This document shows positions 30,676 through 38,924 of a stretch of 64,000 nucleotides of DNA, in pieces (the stretch's first letter is position 1; the number at the start of each line of letters is the position of its first letter). The notes below the pieces were generated by a model. That model did no database searches, was not told where the DNA came from, and worked only from the letters and a program-made list of their open reading frames with translations. The position numbers and the translations under genes are program-made. The stretch lies in assembly GCA_028714855.1 (NCBI GenBank), contig JAQTLP010000003.1, forward strand, positions 62,001 through 126,000, written 5' to 3'. The stretch is from Phycisphaerae bacterium (GTDB taxonomy: Bacteria > Planctomycetota > Phycisphaerae > Sedimentisphaerales > Anaerobacaceae).

Positions 30676-30813
30676 TACGTTAAAATCCCCGTCTGGAGAA
30701 GTGAGAGAGAATGCCCCTGATACGCACTTCGGGAGTATATCTCACTCTAAACAGTTATTTTTACTGTGACGGTGATACTTTACCCTCACACAGAAAAGTT
30801 TTGTAAGATTAAA

Positions 30814-31881
30814 ATGATACAAAACAACAAGGGTGATACATCGCACGGAATGGCATCAAACTCGAACGAGCCTTTGAAAAACAGGGGCTCACGGTTTTCC
30901 ATATCCGGCAAGAACCGAAGTGCTGAGATTGAGTTCGTTGGTAGCTCCGCCGCTCTCACTTCGATTCTCGAAACAATCGAAGCAATTGCTGCACGAAAGT
31001 GTCCTGTGATAATAACCGGCGAGACCGGCGTAGGCAAGGAGCTGGTAGCGCGGCAAATCCACAATGCCAGCGACCGCTCCGGGAAAGTTTTTGTCCCAGT
31101 TGACTGCACTACACTGACCGGCCAGTTGTTCGAGAGTCAGTTGTTCGGCCACGCAAGAGGCGCATTCACCGGTGCTGTTGACTCTACGCTGGGTTTCTTC
31201 AGGGCTGCTGATGGCGGCACAGTCTTTCTCGATGAAATAAGCGAAATCCCGCTCGAATTGCAGGCCAAGTTGTTGCGCGTTCTCCAGGAGGGAGCCGTAA
31301 CACCGCTTGGCTCAACAAAATCTTATCCCATTGACGTTCGCATTTTATGTGCCAGCAACGTTAACCTGTGTGAAATGCTCAAGGAAGGCACATTCCGCGC
31401 CGACCTGTACTATCGGCTGAACGTGGTCAGTCTCGAAGTCCCGCCGCTCCGCCAGCGTAAAGAAGATATCCTGCCGCTGGCTGAATACTTTCTGGCAAAT
31501 CAGTCGACCTTTTACGGTGAACCCCCCAAAGTCCTGAGCCAAACGGCCAAAAAACTTCTGCTGAATTACGCCTGGCCCGGCAATGTCCGTGAGATTGCCA
31601 ACGCTATGGAACGTGCCTATGTTCTGACTACGGGTGAGGAAATTCAGCCGGCCGTGCTGCCGTTCGAAGTTATAATAGCCGATTCAGCCGCTTATCCAAA
31701 TCGCGACTTGCCAACCCTTGATGAGGTAAAACGCAAGATTATTACACAGACGCTCGAATTTACCAAGGGCCGCAAAATTGCTGCTGCAGAAATTCTCGGC
31801 ATCGAGCGCCGCTGTCTGAATCGCTTAATCGATAAGTTAGACATCTCTCTCCCGCAGACAAAGCAAAAGCCTGGCAGCTGA
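30814..31881 (+). CDS. Sigma-54-dependent transcriptional activator (AAA+), no receiver domain
   Basis: The AAA+ core has Walker A GETGVGKE, the sigma-54 contact loop GHARGAFTGA, and Walker B DGGTVFLDEI. WPGNVREIANAMERAYVL and a Fis-type helix-turn-helix near the C terminus (KIAAAEILGIERRCLNRLID) complete it. Only about 35-50 variable residues precede the AAA+ domain, so there is no receiver, PAS or GAF sensor. The exact start is unclear (ATG 30814, ATG 30850 or GTG 30766; none has a strong ribosome site). A -24/-12 promoter about 300 bases downstream and the stand-alone receiver-like gene at 32869 suggest local control of the PEP-CTERM array (inference). Confidence 0.88.
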   Translation: MIQNNKGDTSHGMASNSNEPLKNRGSRFSISGKNRSAEIEFVGSSAALTSILETIEAIAARKCPVIITGETGVGKELVARQIHNASDRSGKVFVPVDCTTLTGQLFESQLFGHARGAFTGAVDSTLGFFRAADGGTVFLDEISEIPLELQAKLLRVLQEGAVTPLGSTKSYPIDVRILCASNVNLCEMLKEGTFRADLYYRLNVVSLEVPPLRQRKEDILPLAEYFLANQSTFYGEPPKVLSQTAKKLLLNYAWPGNVREIANAMERAYVLTTGEEIQPAVLPFEVIIADSAAYPNRDLPTLDEVKRKIITQTLEFTKGRKIAAAEILGIERRCLNRLIDKLDISLPQTKQKPGS

Positions 31882-32186
31882 ACCGGGGCTTTGCCGTCAT
31901 CTCCGTACAGAAAAACTCAAAAATAAAAGCTGCTCTTTTATTCACTCAAAACGAGACCGATGCTGCAACTTTAACCATACCGACCAATATGGTCACCACC
32001 GACCAGATCTGTCGATTATCCGCCAACTAACCCGCACATAAAAACTTGCAGCAGAAACTATCGCCGCTTGCCGACCATAACGGTTGATTCACTTCCAAAA
32101 ACACTTTTAAAGCCGGAAAAAATTCGCAGTACATAGCTGCCGTTATAACAAGCACTTAAGAAATTTTTTCTCATCACACAAAACTC

Positions 32187-32202
32187 TGGCACGCGGCTCG
32201 CT
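32187..32202 (+). promoter_or_regulatory. Sigma-54 (-24/-12) promoter
   Basis: The sequence TGGCACGCGGCTCGCT matches the sigma-54 consensus TGGCACG-N4-TTGCW in all but one defined position, with GG and GC exactly ten bases apart. Transcription would begin near 32213. It would then run through the hairpin-rich leader, the pseudo-receiver gene and, if uninterrupted, the PEP-CTERM array. It lies 300 bases downstream of the sigma-54 activator gene. Confidence 0.75.
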
Positions 32203-32277: not shown

Positions 32278-32452
32278 TTGAGAGCAGACACCCCTTAGCG
32301 GCAAGGCCAGTCCGCAAGTTGGGTGATAAGTATAATCCGCCCGGGGACGGATTGATGCTCACGAGGAGTTTTCTCCCCCCAAGCTGGACCTTGATAATCC
32401 GTAAGGTTACCGGGTCCGGCAGAAATTGACACCCTTGTCTGGGTGATAATTA
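32278..32452 (+). ncRNA. Structured leader module, copy 1 (upstream of the pseudo-receiver gene)
   Basis: Several blocks recur in nearly the same order at 33336-33530: TTGAGAGCA.ACACCCCTTAG, a GGCAAGGCCAG hairpin ending GGGTGATAAGTATAA, a CGAGGAGTTTTCTCCCCCC hairpin followed by AAGCTGGACCTTGATAA, then GGGTCCGGCAGAAA. A final hairpin ends GGGTGATAA. Base changes between copies keep the stems. It is not a reading frame and is probably an RNA element in the sigma-54 transcript. The family is not recognised. Confidence 0.55.
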
Positions 32453-32454
32453 TA

Positions 32455-32522
32455 AACTCTCTCTCCTCCTCTTTTGCTGGGTTTGAGGAACCTAACAATA
32501 AACCCAGCACGATGACAAACAC
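32455..32522 (+). repeat. 68-base direct repeat, copy 1
   Basis: This copy differs from 32752-32819 at six or so of 68 positions, with no gaps. It contains the 9-bp stem GCTGGGTTT (32476-32484) with AAACCCAGC (32500-32508); differences fall in the loop and flanks. It is followed by a small hairpin CACCC-TTTAG-GGGTG and ATAATGATA. On the minus strand the repeat could encode a short peptide with SNPAKEEERE, which is noted as an alternative. Confidence 0.8.
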
Positions 32523-32751
32523 CCTTTAGGGGTGATAATGATAGATGAGTGTGTTTTTTACAAGTGAATAAAAAGAAAACAAAAGAAGCCGATGTGATTC
32601 TTCATCATCTCCTCATTCAAGCTGGATTTGATGATACGGGCTGGTGAGAAATTTACGGAAGGTGAAAACTCTAAGGCAGGAGAAAACTTTAGGGCTGGAG
32701 AAAGCTTTATGGCAGGAGAAAACTTTAACGATAGATAACTTTTGGGTTACG

Positions 32752-32819
32752 AACTCTCTCTCCTCCTCCTTTGCTGGGTTTGACGTATCTAACAACAAAC
32801 CCAGCACGATGATAAACAC
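32752..32819 (+). repeat. 68-base direct repeat, copy 2
   Basis: This is the second copy of the repeat at 32455-32522, with the same 9-bp stem and a changed loop. The small hairpin that follows uses a different stem, CACGGC with GCCGTG, but keeps the same 3' flank GTGATAACGATA. Changed stem bases with preserved pairing support an RNA-level function. It lies 50 bases before the pseudo-receiver start. Confidence 0.8.
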
Positions 32820-32868
32820 GGCCCAATACAAGCCGTGATAACGATACAGATAAGTTTAGGAAACGCAC

Positions 32869-33300
32869 ATGATTATTCTCGTACAAGCAAACGTGTTAAC
32901 GGTTGGCCTCGACGGCAAGAACGAAGTACTGCGAGAGCTGCCGATCCGATTGGTAACAATGCAGTCTGGAATAAAGGCTGCTCGCTCTTTAAAAACTGAA
33001 AAAGTTGACAGTGTTATCAGCAAGTGGGACCTGGATGATATGGAGGACGGCCAATTTCTCAAGAATCTGCGAGCCGTAAAGCCTGAGATTCCAACGATAG
33101 CTTTCGTAAAGGCCGGCGACCAAACACAGGAAATCACGGCTCGAAGTCTCGGTGTCTCGGCGGTTTTGACCGATGATACAGATGATGAGCTCTTCCGTGA
33201 AACCGTCGCCAATATCCTCGGACTCAAAGACATTGCCTCCATAAAAGCAATATCCACTGCTGAAAACCGCCGTCACAAAAAAGAGAAAATTACAAAGTAG
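32869..33300 (+). CDS. Stand-alone receiver-like (pseudo-receiver) protein
   Basis: This 143-residue protein has the alternating pattern of a response-regulator receiver domain, ending in a basic tail (ENRRHKKEKITK). After the third strand, VDSVISKWDLDDMEDGQFL, the position expected to hold the phospho-acceptor Asp appears to be Lys. The usual acidic pair near the N terminus is also missing (MIILVQANVLTVGLDG). It probably works without phosphorylation, perhaps as a partner of the receiver-less sigma-54 activator encoded upstream (inference). It is flanked on both sides by the structured leader modules. Confidence 0.7.
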   Translation: MIILVQANVLTVGLDGKNEVLRELPIRLVTMQSGIKAARSLKTEKVDSVISKWDLDDMEDGQFLKNLRAVKPEIPTIAFVKAGDQTQEITARSLGVSAVLTDDTDDELFRETVANILGLKDIASIKAISTAENRRHKKEKITK

Positions 33301-33335
33301 CCCCCGGTCAGACGCTAAGATACTGCCGGGTGCGA

Positions 33336-33530
33336 TTGAGAGCATACACCCCTTAGAGGCAAGGCCAGGCCACAGGCTGGGTGATAAGTATAAATGCTCG
33401 CGAGGAGTTTTCTCCCCCCAAGCTGGACCTTGATAAACCTTAATAGTCTAAAACCAAAACTGGCCTAAAGAGAGGTTACTGGGTCCGGCAGAAAATTAAC
33501 ATCCCTGTCGGGGTGATAACAATAACTGCT
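33336..33530 (+). ncRNA. Structured leader module, copy 2 (upstream of the PEP-CTERM array)
   Basis: This copy matches the module at 32278-32452 block by block, with an insertion of about 30 bases before the GGTTACTGGGTCCGGCAG block. The first hairpin here pairs CCAG with CTGG perfectly. The last hairpin is ATCCC-TGTC-GGGGT followed by GATAACAATAA. It ends about 55 bases before the first PEP-CTERM start, as expected for a 5' leader. Confidence 0.55.
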
Positions 33531-33584: not shown

Positions 33585-34334
33585 ATGAAAATGATAATCG
33601 CAATCTGTGTCGCAGCAGGATTGATGATTTTTACGGCCCCTGCGGTCTATGCATTACCATCGGATAATTTCGATGACAATTCAAGGGACATATCTCTATG
33701 GAATCTCTATGGCGAGAATGATTTCGTATGGCTGGAAGAAATCAACCAGCGACTGGAGCTGCGCTCAATAGCATCGTATCCGGACCCTGATTATTTCGCC
33801 AATGGCTGGGGGCTTCTGCCAACGGACGACTTTTCCTTAAAGATAGATTTCAGTCACATTTCCGAACTTCCGAACGCTGACTTTTCCCTTCACCTTGGTC
33901 TCGCCAAGGATGAGGATAACTATGTTGTAATAGAGGCCGGCTATGGAGATGCCGAAGGGAGCGGCACTCACTCATTTTTTTACTGTGGTGTAACTATAGA
34001 CGGCACCGAAATCAGCAAAGGCGAGAAGGATAAGACCGAAGATTTCGGAACTCTGCATATATCTTACGATGCGAGCAAAGACGAATTATACCTGAGCGAT
34101 GCCGGCTACTGGACAGATGATGCCTGGGTCACCATCCCGGATTTGCTGCAGGATACGTGGGGCGGCAGCGCTGTCTCACCATATATAGGCGGCTGGGCCT
34201 ATGGCACACCCCTGGCTTCCGGCGACGCCTACCTCGACAACTTCGTGGTCGATAGCGGCGAGTTAGTTCCCGAGCCGGCAACGGTTGCCCTGCTGGGCCT
34301 TGGTGCGTTGAGTCTGATTCGCAGAAAAAAATAA
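33585..34334 (+). CDS. PEP-CTERM sorting-domain protein, first of the seven-gene array
   Basis: This 249-residue protein has a signal peptide (MKMIIAICVAAGLMIFTAPA) and a beta-rich laminin-G/concanavalin-like body (FDDNSRDISLWNLY, then FSLKIDFSHIS). Its tail is VPEPATVALLGLGALSLIRR with a basic end. The start follows GAGGAAAAC. It directly follows leader module copy 2, so it is a likely target of the sigma-54 system. Confidence 0.85.
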   Translation: MKMIIAICVAAGLMIFTAPAVYALPSDNFDDNSRDISLWNLYGENDFVWLEEINQRLELRSIASYPDPDYFANGWGLLPTDDFSLKIDFSHISELPNADFSLHLGLAKDEDNYVVIEAGYGDAEGSGTHSFFYCGVTIDGTEISKGEKDKTEDFGTLHISYDASKDELYLSDAGYWTDDAWVTIPDLLQDTWGGSAVSPYIGGWAYGTPLASGDAYLDNFVVDSGELVPEPATVALLGLGALSLIRRKK

Positions 34335-34387
34335 ACAAAAAGAATGTAATAAAAGAAACTGAAAATTTAATGGAAATAAGGAGAAAA

Positions 34388-35173
34388 ATGATGAAGAAAT
34401 TAAATGCAACCTGGTTAGTAGTTGCGTGTGCCATAGCAGCATTATTGGTCTCGGCCATGCCGGTTCAGGCCGGTCTGGTCACTTTCGATGGTCCCGGCTA
34501 TGTTGCTGGCGCGACGCCGCCGGCGCCATGGACGGACCGTTATACCGCAACAGGTGACCCCAAATCCGACCTCGTGTACCAAGTCGTGGCCGGCGCCGGT
34601 GTCGACGGTTCGCAGGCCCTGACAGTCTTTCAGAACGGCTACTTGGAAGGTGCTGCCGTCTATATGCTGCCCACGCCGCTGACCTCGGCCGATGGTGCTC
34701 AGCGCATCTCGGTGATGCTGGACCCGTCGCAGAACGACCCTTATAACTTCACTTCTTTCGGTGGTGTCTCTATGGGACGCGGCGGTTGGATACAAGACAG
34801 TACGGCTGTCTTTCGCAGCGTCAATTTCTTAAAGAATGGAGCCACGAACTTCCAGATTGTTGGCCCCGGTGGTTTATTTGGACCCTTCGTAGCGTCAGCA
34901 GCACAGAACTATTACGAGATTGCATTCGATATCAATGCTGATTTCTCCTTGATTTTAATCACCGTGACCGCACCGGGCGGCGCCACGATGACTCAAACCA
35001 CAAGCTGGGACGGCGGGGATATCAACAAGGTCTGGCTGTGGGACGGCGACAGTGAGTATAGCGGCCAGCCCGTCTATTACGATAACCTGTACGCAGGCGT
35101 CCCCGAACCGGCAACGGTTGCCCTGCTGGGACTTGGTGCTTTGAGTCTGATTCGCAGGAAACGAAGCGTGTAA
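34388..35173 (+). CDS. PEP-CTERM sorting-domain protein
   Basis: The protein has 261 residues. The start at 34388 follows AAGGAGAAAA and gives a signal peptide (KKLNATWLVVACAIAALLVS). The body resembles a sugar-binding or concanavalin-like beta sandwich, ending in WLWDGDSEYSGQPVYYDNL. The tail is VPEPATVALLGLGALSLIRR and then KRSV. The tail and the bases just after the stop closely resemble those of the 37598 gene. Confidence 0.84.
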   Translation: MMKKLNATWLVVACAIAALLVSAMPVQAGLVTFDGPGYVAGATPPAPWTDRYTATGDPKSDLVYQVVAGAGVDGSQALTVFQNGYLEGAAVYMLPTPLTSADGAQRISVMLDPSQNDPYNFTSFGGVSMGRGGWIQDSTAVFRSVNFLKNGATNFQIVGPGGLFGPFVASAAQNYYEIAFDINADFSLILITVTAPGGATMTQTTSWDGGDINKVWLWDGDSEYSGQPVYYDNLYAGVPEPATVALLGLGALSLIRRKRSV

Positions 35174-35195
35174 GTTCGAAAAGGAATAATTGTCG

Positions 35196-35214
35196 GCTGC
35201 GGTCGATCCGCAGC
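35196..35214 (+). terminator. Hairpin followed by an A-run after the 34388 gene
   Basis: GCTGCGG (35196-35202) pairs with CCGCAGC (35208-35214), followed by A6. The preceding AAAAGGAATAATTGT and the hairpin recur after the 37598 gene at 38302-38334. With A rather than T after the stem, it is probably an mRNA-processing or attenuation element, not a full terminator. Confidence 0.4.
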
Positions 35215-35255
35215 AAAAAATAACAATATCAACTAATGCGGAAAGGAGAATTAAA

Positions 35256-35993
35256 ATGAAAAAGTTAATTTTAACAAGCTTGTGTGTGCTGTTTTTCGCA
35301 GGCACGGCCTTGGCAGATTGGAATCCGGGCGACTCATATAAGATGCATTATCCACAACTGCCAGACCCCACCGGATGGGATGTGCAAGCTAATGACCCTG
35401 AGTTGGCTGACGACTGGCTGTGCACGGGAACCGGTCCGGTCTCAGACATACACATCTGGTATTCTGTGTTCGGCGATGAATATAGCGCTATTCTTCAGGG
35501 TGGGGTTGTGAGAATCTACTCGGACAGCCCCGACCCGGACGATGATGGTCCGCTTTTCAGTCATCCGGATAAGAAGCTGTGGGAATGGGTATTTAGCATC
35601 GATGATCCGCGTGTAAGTTCGCGTTTGTACGGTACGGGTGACCAGGGCTGGTACAATCCCAGAAACGAAGAGGTGTATGCCAATAACCACGACAACATCT
35701 ACCAACTCAACATCGTCGATATCCCTGACCCATTCGAGCAGAAGGAAGGCGAAGTCTACTGGCTGGCCCTGCAGTTAAATGCGACCTTCGCTATGGGATG
35801 GAAAACCTCGTTGGACCACTGGAATGACGATGCCGTCTGGTCGAACGGGACGATCGGAGGTCCATGGAACGAGTTATGTGACCCCTACACCGGACAATCG
35901 CTGGATATGGCATTCGTCATTACGCCAGAGCCAGCAACGGTTGCGTTGCTCGGTCTTGGCGCTTTAAGTCTTATCAGGAAGAAACGTGCATAA
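35256..35993 (+). CDS. PEP-CTERM sorting-domain protein
   Basis: This 245-residue protein starts after AAAGGAGAATTAAA. The signal peptide ends in ALA, and the mature domain opens DWNPGDSYKMHYPQLPDPTG with GWDVQA. That opening belongs, as far as I recall, to a domain type common in secreted Phycisphaerae proteins (from memory, not verified). The tail is TPEPATVALLGLGALSLIRK. Acidic and Trp residues are frequent, suggesting an extracellular beta fold. No active site was recognised. Confidence 0.84.
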   Translation: MKKLILTSLCVLFFAGTALADWNPGDSYKMHYPQLPDPTGWDVQANDPELADDWLCTGTGPVSDIHIWYSVFGDEYSAILQGGVVRIYSDSPDPDDDGPLFSHPDKKLWEWVFSIDDPRVSSRLYGTGDQGWYNPRNEEVYANNHDNIYQLNIVDIPDPFEQKEGEVYWLALQLNATFAMGWKTSLDHWNDDAVWSNGTIGGPWNELCDPYTGQSLDMAFVITPEPATVALLGLGALSLIRKKRA

Positions 35994-36014
35994 ATAAAAA
36001 AGAAAGGTCCAAAA

Positions 36015-36040
36015 TGCGGAGCACTTTATAGTGCTCCGCA
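36015..36040 (+). terminator. Perfect 10-bp hairpin between PEP-CTERM genes
   Basis: TGCGGAGCAC (36015-36024) pairs exactly with GTGCTCCGCA (36031-36040) around TTTATA. There is no T-run. It may set relative expression by stabilising the upstream message. Confidence 0.5.
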
Positions 36041-36074
36041 GAATGGCCTTGAAACTAAAAAAAGAGGAAAAGGT

Positions 36075-36776
36075 ATGAAAAATCATTGTTTAATACTCAT
36101 CTTACTAACGTTTCTTTCTGTCGAATTCATACCGGCCAATGCCAAGGCCAGTCTTACGATAGCAACGTTTGCCGACCCATCAAGAAACAGCAACAATCCG
36201 CTGTTTACCGTGGATTTTACGCAAATGAAATTCACTGGCGGATGGGATGATGAAAAAACAGGTCTGACCCTCGAAATCCCTTATAGCGATTACACCATTG
36301 AAAACGGTACTGCTTTTGAAAATGTGTGGTTTGAAATGACTGACGTGAACATAACAGACATAGATGTTATATGGGGTCAGAAATTTGGTCAGACTGGTTC
36401 CGGCGTGATTAGCTTTTACGAAGACGACACTAACACAGACCCATTGGTGGTTATTGAATTTGATAGTGGTCTTGTATGGCAGCAGAGCTTTGGAGGGGAC
36501 GAAATATTTGTTGCTGAAAACGTAACAATTACAGGTTCCAAAATCACCGGCACACTTTCAGAGGAACAATTTACTTTCGGTTTTGCTAATCAGGCGAAAC
36601 TGCCAGGCCCTACTGACTGGAACGATGGATTTACCGCCACGGCGGCATTTACTTCATCAGCAGTTTCCACTTCCGCACCGGCCCCCGAGCCGGCAACGAT
36701 TTGTCTGCTCGGCCTCGGCGCTTTAAGTCTGCTTCGCAGCAGGAAAAAGAAAACACAAGACAAGGACAATGAATGA
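36075..36776 (+). CDS. PEP-CTERM protein, paralogue of the 22652 gene
   Basis: This 233-residue protein has a signal peptide and the domain opening TIATFADPSRNSNNPLFTVD and GGWDDEKTGLTLEIPYSD. These match the protein at 22652-23290 in order and spacing. The tail is APEPATICLLGLGALSLLRS followed by a longer basic-acidic end (KKKTQDKDNE). Ribosome site AGAGGAAAAGG precedes the ATG. Confidence 0.84.
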   Translation: MKNHCLILILLTFLSVEFIPANAKASLTIATFADPSRNSNNPLFTVDFTQMKFTGGWDDEKTGLTLEIPYSDYTIENGTAFENVWFEMTDVNITDIDVIWGQKFGQTGSGVISFYEDDTNTDPLVVIEFDSGLVWQQSFGGDEIFVAENVTITGSKITGTLSEEQFTFGFANQAKLPGPTDWNDGFTATAAFTSSAVSTSAPAPEPATICLLGLGALSLLRSRKKKTQDKDNE

Positions 36777-36805
36777 TTGTTAATTAAATTTTGACTGGAA
36801 AAACC

Positions 36806-37585
36806 ATGAAAAAAACTGAAATTTTAGCGATAACAATTATCTGCCTGACTCTGACCGTCAGCGCAGCTAACGCCGATATCGGACCGCTCTCAACATCAAC
36901 AAGCCAGGCATCAATAGATTGGACATCGTTGACTGTAACCGGAGACATTACGTGGCTTGATAAAGGCAGTGAGTCACACACCCGGGCAGAAGATGATACA
37001 GCGTGGGATGAGGATTACGACGCAGCATCGGGATGGGTTGACACAGACGCTTTCGCTTCGATAACAGGTTCGGTTTACCATGCATACGGTGATGCTTATA
37101 CCGATGCTGATAGATTATTCGAAGAGGTGTATGCGATTGTAAATGAAACTACCACAACGTGGGCATATGCTGATGCATATGCGTATCGCTGGGGCGACTT
37201 CATTGCAAACTCGTCCGGCTCGGTAACATTTTCAGCAGATTACGGGCTTTCGCAGGACTTAGGGTCGGAGAATCCAGGTAACTGGACGTATGGTTTTGCA
37301 GAAGCAGGGTTATGGCTGAAGAAAGAAAACACGAATGATGAAGTCGAAGACATAGCAGAACTCGAAAACTTTAACTTTTGGGCGGATGGCCAAGTTATTA
37401 ACTATTCGGACAACGGCACATTGACAATAACACTATGGTTTGAGGCAGGAGAGATAGGGCTTTTTGACGCCTGGGTATATAACGAAGCAGTGGCGGCAAT
37501 CCCCGAACCGGCAACGATTTGTCTGCTCGGCCTCGGCGTTTTGAGTCTCGTTATCAAAAAGAAGCAGCAACTAAAAATAAAATAA
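36806..37585 (+). CDS. PEP-CTERM sorting-domain protein rich in Asp, Ala, Tyr and Trp
   Basis: This 259-residue protein uses the ATG at 36806; an upstream TTG at 36791 is less likely. A signal peptide ends near ANA. The body has many D, W, Y and A residues (AYADAYAYRWGDF) and no recognised domain. The tail is IPEPATICLLGLGVLSLVIK. Twelve bases separate its stop from the next start, so the pair is probably co-transcribed. Confidence 0.82.
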   Translation: MKKTEILAITIICLTLTVSAANADIGPLSTSTSQASIDWTSLTVTGDITWLDKGSESHTRAEDDTAWDEDYDAASGWVDTDAFASITGSVYHAYGDAYTDADRLFEEVYAIVNETTTTWAYADAYAYRWGDFIANSSGSVTFSADYGLSQDLGSENPGNWTYGFAEAGLWLKKENTNDEVEDIAELENFNFWADGQVINYSDNGTLTITLWFEAGEIGLFDAWVYNEAVAAIPEPATICLLGLGVLSLVIKKKQQLKIK

Positions 37586-37597
37586 GGAGAACTTCAG

Positions 37598-38290
37598 ATG
37601 AAAAAATTGACCGCTATCTGTGCAATTTTCTTAATTTCGTCGGTCTCGCCCAACACCGTCTCGGCCTTAACCAATGGCGGATTCGAATCCGGAAACTTTA
37701 CCGGCTGGACCACGATCGGCGTCGCTTCCATCGAGACTGCAGCTTATGGAGCCGGCCCTACCAAAGGTTCATATCAAGCGTTGGTGGTCAGCGAGGGTGG
37801 TTCTTTAGTTTCGGATTCCGCCATAGAGACATTTCTTGGCCTTCCGGTTGGAACACTGGATGGCTTCTTATTCGACGACGATGCGACCGCAGGTTCAGCA
37901 ATCAAACAAACTATCACGGTCAGCGAGGGTGATGTGCTGACGTTCGATTGGAATTTCCTGACGGACGAGGTGGAAGAGGGAGACAATGTCCGTGATTTTG
38001 CGTTCGTCTCGCTCTCCACCGGATACGCAGATATCCTGGCGGACGCGGTTTTTTCGGTGTTCGTTCCGTCCAGTACCCCGTTTAACGACGAAACCGGCTT
38101 TGCTATGTTTTCATACGGCTTCACAACCAGCGGAACTTTTACCCTGGGTTTTGGGGTGATGCATGTGGAAGATAATGATGTCGATTCCGGCCTGCTGCTC
38201 GACAATGTTATTGTCACTCCCGAGCCGGCAACGGTTGCTCTGCTCGGCCTCGGTGGTTTGAGTCTGCTTCGCAGAAAACGGAGCGTGTAA
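37598..38290 (+). CDS. PEP-CTERM sorting-domain protein
   Basis: This 230-residue protein follows AAGGAGAACTTCAG. After the signal peptide it opens LTNGGFESGNFTGWTTIGVA, the typical start of a galactose-binding-like (jelly-roll) domain, so carbohydrate binding is possible (inference). The tail is TPEPATVALLGLGGLSLLRR and then KRSV. Confidence 0.85.
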   Translation: MKKLTAICAIFLISSVSPNTVSALTNGGFESGNFTGWTTIGVASIETAAYGAGPTKGSYQALVVSEGGSLVSDSAIETFLGLPVGTLDGFLFDDDATAGSAIKQTITVSEGDVLTFDWNFLTDEVEEGDNVRDFAFVSLSTGYADILADAVFSVFVPSSTPFNDETGFAMFSYGFTTSGTFTLGFGVMHVEDNDVDSGLLLDNVIVTPEPATVALLGLGGLSLLRRKRSV

Positions 38291-38317
38291 GTTTGATTTA
38301 AAAGGAATAATTGTTGA

Positions 38318-38334
38318 CTGCGGGCGGTCCGCAG
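38318..38334 (+). terminator. Hairpin with A-run after the 37598 gene, second copy
   Basis: CTGCGG (38318-38323) pairs with CCGCAG (38329-38334) and is followed by CAAAAA. Together with the preceding AAAAGGAATAATTGT it is a copy of the element at 35181-35216. Confidence 0.4.
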
Positions 38335-38375
38335 CAAAAACGGGAATATTACCAGAATAAAAAGAAGGATTAAAA

Positions 38376-38924
38376 ATGAAACTATTGATTCTGATTTGCC
38401 TGCTGGTTGCGACGGTAGCTGTGCCTGCCTCGACGGCAAGAGCCGCAGGCGCAGGCATAAATCCGGCAGTATGGAATTTCGCATTAGAGAGTCCCGCAGG
38501 AGATGCGTCCTGGACCTCAGCCACAAATGTTGTCACAGGTTGGCCACAGTACGATTATAGCTGGGCGTTAAGCTATGCGGATGCGCAGGTGGGCGGCGGC
38601 TGGTACGACGTACTGGGCTACATACCTGAAAGTGACAAAAGCGGCTCCGGTACCGAATATGCACTTCCCTTTGTCGTATTAGACATCAATTTAGGAGAAC
38701 CAGGGATATTTACCGCCCACGTCCTGGCCGGCGTAGACGCCGGCGGTTATGGCTACGCAAATATTACTGACGTAACTCTCGGTCAAGTCGGGGGCTACGA
38801 TGTAACAGGCTTCCGATGCGGCGGAACAGCGACGGTCACAGCTGTCCCCGAGCCAGCAACGATGGCTATCCTCGGCCTCGGCGGTTTGCTGATTGGTCGA
38901 AACAGGAAATTTAACAAGAAATAA
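38376..38924 (+). CDS. PEP-CTERM sorting-domain protein, last of the array
   Basis: This 182-residue protein has a signal peptide (MKLLILICLLVATVAVPAST) and a compact Gly/Tyr/Ala-rich body. Its tail, VPEPATMAILGLGGLLIGRN, is followed by a basic end. The start follows GAAGGATTAAAA. It closes the plus-strand array. Confidence 0.82.
   Translation: MKLLILICLLVATVAVPASTARAAGAGINPAVWNFALESPAGDASWTSATNVVTGWPQYDYSWALSYADAQVGGGWYDVLGYIPESDKSGSGTEYALPFVVLDINLGEPGIFTAHVLAGVDAGGYGYANITDVTLGQVGGYDVTGFRCGGTATVTAVPEPATMAILGLGGLLIGRNRKFNKK

Follow-up and report, generated by a model that had tools for sequence, protein, structure and literature searches.

We propose that the hairpin modules repeated at one locus of this contig represent, on balance, a new family of structured small regulatory RNAs, going beyond a mere switch before surface-protein genes. 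Judged by comparison across genomes, the module is a previously undescribed structured RNA, spread over one Planctomycetota order. It was met in the window, that is, the whole stretch of 64,000 nucleotides that was analysed. In aligned relatives it spans about 90-120 nt: a single-stranded CU-rich stretch leads into hairpin 1 (GCUGGGUUUG...CAAACCCAGC), which an A-rich linker, mostly 10-12 nt long, joins to hairpin 2 (CACGGC...GCCGUG); a AUAANNAUAA tail follows.

The structure is carried by covariation. In the seed alignment (n=33), 97.2% of cells are paired and two-sided changes occur in 10 of 16 pairs; with 150 instances fitted to the model, 97.5% of cells are paired and all 16 pairs show two-sided changes. 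The covariation score of these 150 instances is 0.478, whereas shuffled alignments reach 0.222 and slid structures no more than 0.105. G-U pairs are frequent in both hairpins, which points to RNA rather than to a palindromic DNA element. Because the z-scores of folding vary between stretches (-2.05, -3.45 and -2.74 in three, but +0.66 and -0.87 in two from the second copy), it is covariation, and not energy, that supports the structural claim.

The original prediction of a structured RNA had named further copies, covariation and the lack of a known Rfam family as its test; other copies exist, covariation is strong, and Rfam holds no match. At the gathering score, Rfam 15 returned tRNAs only and no family that fits the module. 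Below threshold, the top matches (E 0.034 and 0.3) were to snoRNA models and stayed far under the cut-off, and four relatives gave no match at 0.1. Of 148 genomes of the order, 61 carry the module according to our first covariance model (R1; R2 is a second, broader one). A class-wide search matched 44 of 397 genomes, all within the same order except G156, whose GC-rich, coding-like sequence looks like a false match. Phylum-wide, matches were again confined to genomes of that order, with none convincing beyond it. The named records of the relatives are metagenome-assembled genomes of Phycisphaerae and other Planctomycetota.

Within the window, the predicted two-copy block with conserved pieces is indeed present, at 32278-32456 and 33336-33526, with 82-95% identity. 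Its segments align as 32278-32335 with 33336-33393 (90% over 58 nt), 32355-32404 with 33394-33443 (94% over 50 nt), 32404-32425 with 33473-33494 (95% over 22 nt) and 32423-32455 with 33493-33525 (82%). A further unit is duplicated inside the leader (32450-32522 and 32747-32819, 89% over 73 nt). The repeat is larger than had been described: it comprises four module copies, not two blocks (Table 1). Of the six occurrences of the word GGGTGATAA in the window, where 0.39 would be expected, five fall at the locus. All module and BLAST matches in the source genome are confined to this one locus, which led us to reject a dispersed repeat element. The pseudo-receiver gene has modules on either side; since the second copy follows that gene, it is the 3' part of its transcript as much as a PEP-CTERM leader. 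Downstream of the second copy, PEP-CTERM genes form a run on the + strand (33585-38924).

Table 1. Features of the window locus in 5' to 3' order, and loci with an anti-loop hairpin.
Feature	Position	Strand	Evidence
Sigma-54 activator gene, without receiver domain	30766..31881	+	Pfam Sigma54_activat 1.8e-64, HTH_8 1.4e-6 (AAA+ and Fis-type HTH domains); no Pfam match to a receiver domain
Putative enhancer-like inverted repeats GACCAATATGGTC, GACCAGATCTGTC, GACCATAACGG	31982..32087	.	read from sequence
Probable sigma-54 promoter TGGCACGCGGCTCGC	32187..32201	+	read from sequence
First hairpin CACCC..GGGTG, tail ATAAGTATAA, possibly closed by GAGCA/TGCTC	32280..32360	+	sequence, fold
RNA module 1, first type, strand AGTTTTCTCCCCCC	32367..32456	+	R1 8.8e-6; R2 2.3e-9 (L005:1590-1679)
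RNA module 2	32459..32545	+	R1 3e-16
Four SD-like repeats GGAGAAAACTTTA, complementary to AGTTTTCTCC of first-type modules	32661..32727	+	sequence
RNA module 3	32757..32848	+	R1 3.8e-18
Pseudo-receiver gene, CheY-like, 143 aa, Lys at phospho-Asp position	32869..33300	+	Pfam Response_reg 4.4e-7; alignments
Second copy of first hairpin CACCC..GGGTG with tail	33340..33393	+	90% identical to 32278-32335
RNA module 4, first type	33406..33526	+	R1 7.6e-6; R2 1.3e-9 (L005:2629-2749)
First PEP-CTERM gene 3' of second copy	33585..34334	+	Pfam PEP-CTERM 4.7e-6
Anti-loop hairpin loci	L037, L052, L057, L059, L060, L101, L102, L105, L108-L110, L116, L119, L129-L134		

The protein linked to the modules belongs to the receiver sequence family (Response_reg 30.5 bits, cut-off 30.2), and profile matching places it with CheY/NtrC1 chains. 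Its phospho-acceptor aspartate is replaced by K, R, S, H or N in all 26 aligned pseudo-receivers. Pfam recognises the receiver only: no ANTAR, no known RNA-binding domain and no DUF1127 were matched. No relative of the protein was found in viral contigs, and 62 of the 148 genomes of the order encode one. RNA and pseudo-receiver occur together in 53 of these genomes, the RNA alone in 8, the protein alone in 9 and neither in 78 (Fisher p 4.6e-22, a statistic that ignores shared ancestry). Several of the protein-only genomes hold modules under R2 (L119, L120, L121 and L124). The small CheY-like protein of the window (32869-33300), with lysine at the phospho-Asp position, is conserved across the order.

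Across relatives, the usual plan runs from a sigma-54-like promoter through the pseudo-receiver gene to a row of modules. The pattern TGGCAC-N5-T(T/C)GC lies 5' of the pseudo-receiver gene there as in the window, similar inverted repeats recur upstream, and 20 of 21 genomes encode RpoN. Modules upstream of the pseudo-receiver gene, as in the window, occur in 9 loci. Terminators and promoters were called approximately, with simple scripts of our own, and the arrays of distant genomes were missed, so that such counts are lower bounds. Outside this plan, four loci (L127, L128, L173 and L174) have a single module followed by a strong GC-rich, terminator-like hairpin; its loop carries GGAGGG, and in L127, L128 and L173 a T-run comes next. 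The module of L127 lies 3' of sensor-kinase-like and regulator-like genes. Of all the observations, such free-standing copies speak most strongly for a small RNA.

If the modules act as small RNAs, the transcript would be cut in the AU-rich tails to give single modules, and their CU-rich strand, rich in UCUCC, would pair with target mRNAs at ribosome-binding sites of the GGAG type. TCTCC is found in 90 of 150 CU strands (32 expected from composition), CTCC in 121 (63 expected) and CCTCC in 55. GGAG is rare within the modules, at 0.08 per module versus 0.32, as expected if the CU strand must stay free. Against the small-RNA reading, the CU strands are on average just 53% unpaired in local folds, and L056 carries UUCUUC-type strands without UCUCC. 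Nor could a specific target be assigned to the CU strand, for start regions pair with it better than coding regions do, but equally well with shuffled CU strands; target specificity was rejected on that ground. PEP-CTERM starts pair slightly better (p 0.024 in the window, 0.038 pooled), with p 0.38 for the specificity term. Also counting against this reading, a search for Hfq gave no match in 21 genomes (G000 and 20 relatives).

At 20 loci there is an extra hairpin, usually the terminator, whose 7-nt apical loop (ACUGGCC or ACUGUUC) is complementary to the module loops. Pairing sites number 79 for the locus' own loop type and 9 for the other type, with about 7 expected in shuffled arrays; the matching is lineage-specific. 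In the window lineage no anti-loop hairpin was found. The GGAGAAAACTTTA repeats, complementary to AGTTTTCTCC of first-type modules, also occur in G002 (L035). As small RNAs, the modules would be docked by the anti-loop hairpin through their loops and so held, protected or titrated, and the pseudo-receiver may aid processing or feed back on the adjacent sigma-54 activator. Any effect of either the anti-loop or the GGAGAAAACTTTA-AGTTTTCTCC pairing is inferred, and the kissing pairs could alternatively have a structural role for the whole array. Put together, these steps would make a self-regulating array, in which one sigma-54-like transcript yields a phosphorylation-dead receiver, several anti-Shine-Dalgarno small RNAs and a 7-nt kissing-loop hairpin that sets the number of free modules; we offer this fuller scheme tentatively, as possible but doubtful.

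The modules could instead act in cis, as leader or intercistronic elements that control the gene behind them (mostly a PEP-CTERM gene) at the level of translation, stability or termination, either by pairing of the CU strand with that gene's ribosome-binding site or by way of a bound factor. This is the simpler account where modules directly precede coding genes, and a leader before co-regulated genes, perhaps sensing a signal, was what the original prediction had in mind. A PEP-CTERM gene lies within 900 nt in 16 of the 41 loci with modules 3' of the pseudo-receiver gene. The leader role fits L054, with modules just 5' of PEP-CTERM start codons; L061, and similarly L098 and L099, where a sigma-54-like promoter is followed by modules and then by hemerythrin/DUF438-type (hemerythrin-domain) genes; and L097 (4834-5375), where two modules follow a LuxR-type response regulator gene and lie just 5' of a csrA copy. 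It does not extend to the family at large: the rows are mostly found behind the pseudo-receiver gene, a terminator-like hairpin precedes any PEP-CTERM gene in 26 of the 41 loci, the window modules flank the same gene on both sides, and free-standing modules exist. We consider a purely cis-acting role unlikely.

Tandem arrays of fixed geometry that strongly co-occur with the pseudo-receiver would also suit a protein sponge, in which the modules titrate an RNA-binding protein (the pseudo-receiver, CsrA or another) in the manner of CsrB/RsmZ. Like those RNAs, the modules form arrays of repeated hairpins; CsrA is encoded in 18 of the 21 genomes, some single modules follow sensor-kinase/LuxR-type regulator genes, and the terminator loops of these carry GGAGGG. 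GGA is the core of the CsrA site. CsrB/RsmZ repeat it in their loops, whereas it is depleted in the modules (0.67 versus 1.43 per module) and present in just 17 of 150 first loops. CsrA as the titrated protein was rejected because of this depletion, and the lack of a known RNA-binding domain argues against the pseudo-receiver. We consider a protein sponge quite improbable. The position of modules at the 3' end of transcripts and their pyrimidine-rich, unstructured strands (86% pyrimidine) are what one would expect of passive structures whose only function is to shield the mRNA or to provide Rho with a loading region. We rate this as highly improbable, given that UCUCC is conserved beyond composition, that the two-hairpin geometry is fixed and covaries, and that free-standing copies have terminators of their own.

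The best reading by analogy is that the small-RNA locus is organised, and may work, like ccaF1-CcsR1-4 while being unrelated to it. In that system, an alternative-sigma promoter drives the gene of a small RNA-binding protein together with tandem small RNAs, and a terminator closes the unit (PMC10253847); related rhizobial RNAs carry CCUCCUCCC in their loops (PMC3927594). Both ccaF1-CcsR1-4/CIN1, the cuckoo RNAs of alphaproteobacteria, and the present locus thus join a small protein gene to tandem homologous RNAs with anti-Shine-Dalgarno-like CU motifs, between an alternative-sigma promoter and a terminator. They differ in the protein (DUF1127 there, a pseudo-receiver here), in the promoter (RpoH there, sigma-54-like here) and in phylum; in addition, a two-hairpin module and an anti-loop hairpin are particular to the family described here. 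Whereas CIN1/cuckoo RNAs bear CCUCCUCCC in each hairpin loop, the CU motif here lies ahead of hairpin 1, in the CU-rich strand. The defining features of CIN1/cuckoo RNAs are lacking, making ccaF1-CcsR1-4 a parallel and not a sign of family membership.

ANTAR RNA targets resemble the module in their two hairpins, short linker and nearby receiver-type regulator; however, the module loops vary in length and sequence, and by Pfam the pseudo-receiver lacks an ANTAR domain. RpoN-dependent PEP-CTERM genes have been described elsewhere (PMC9850573), combining sigma-54 control with PEP-CTERM genes as here; the passages concerned describe promoter control and mention no structured RNA array.

An order-wide, covarying RNA family, both tandem and free-standing and linked to an inactive receiver, provides an entry to post-transcriptional control in Planctomycetota. 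To our knowledge, the small RNAs of this phylum have apparently been little studied. The design of a small protein plus tandem anti-SD RNAs would apparently be an independent case.

Finally, five loci (L100:4700-4870, L104:5000-5130, L127, L128 and L173) share an upstream word, GTAGTTTCCAC or GTAGTTACCAC, which is perhaps a candidate regulator site 5' of single modules.
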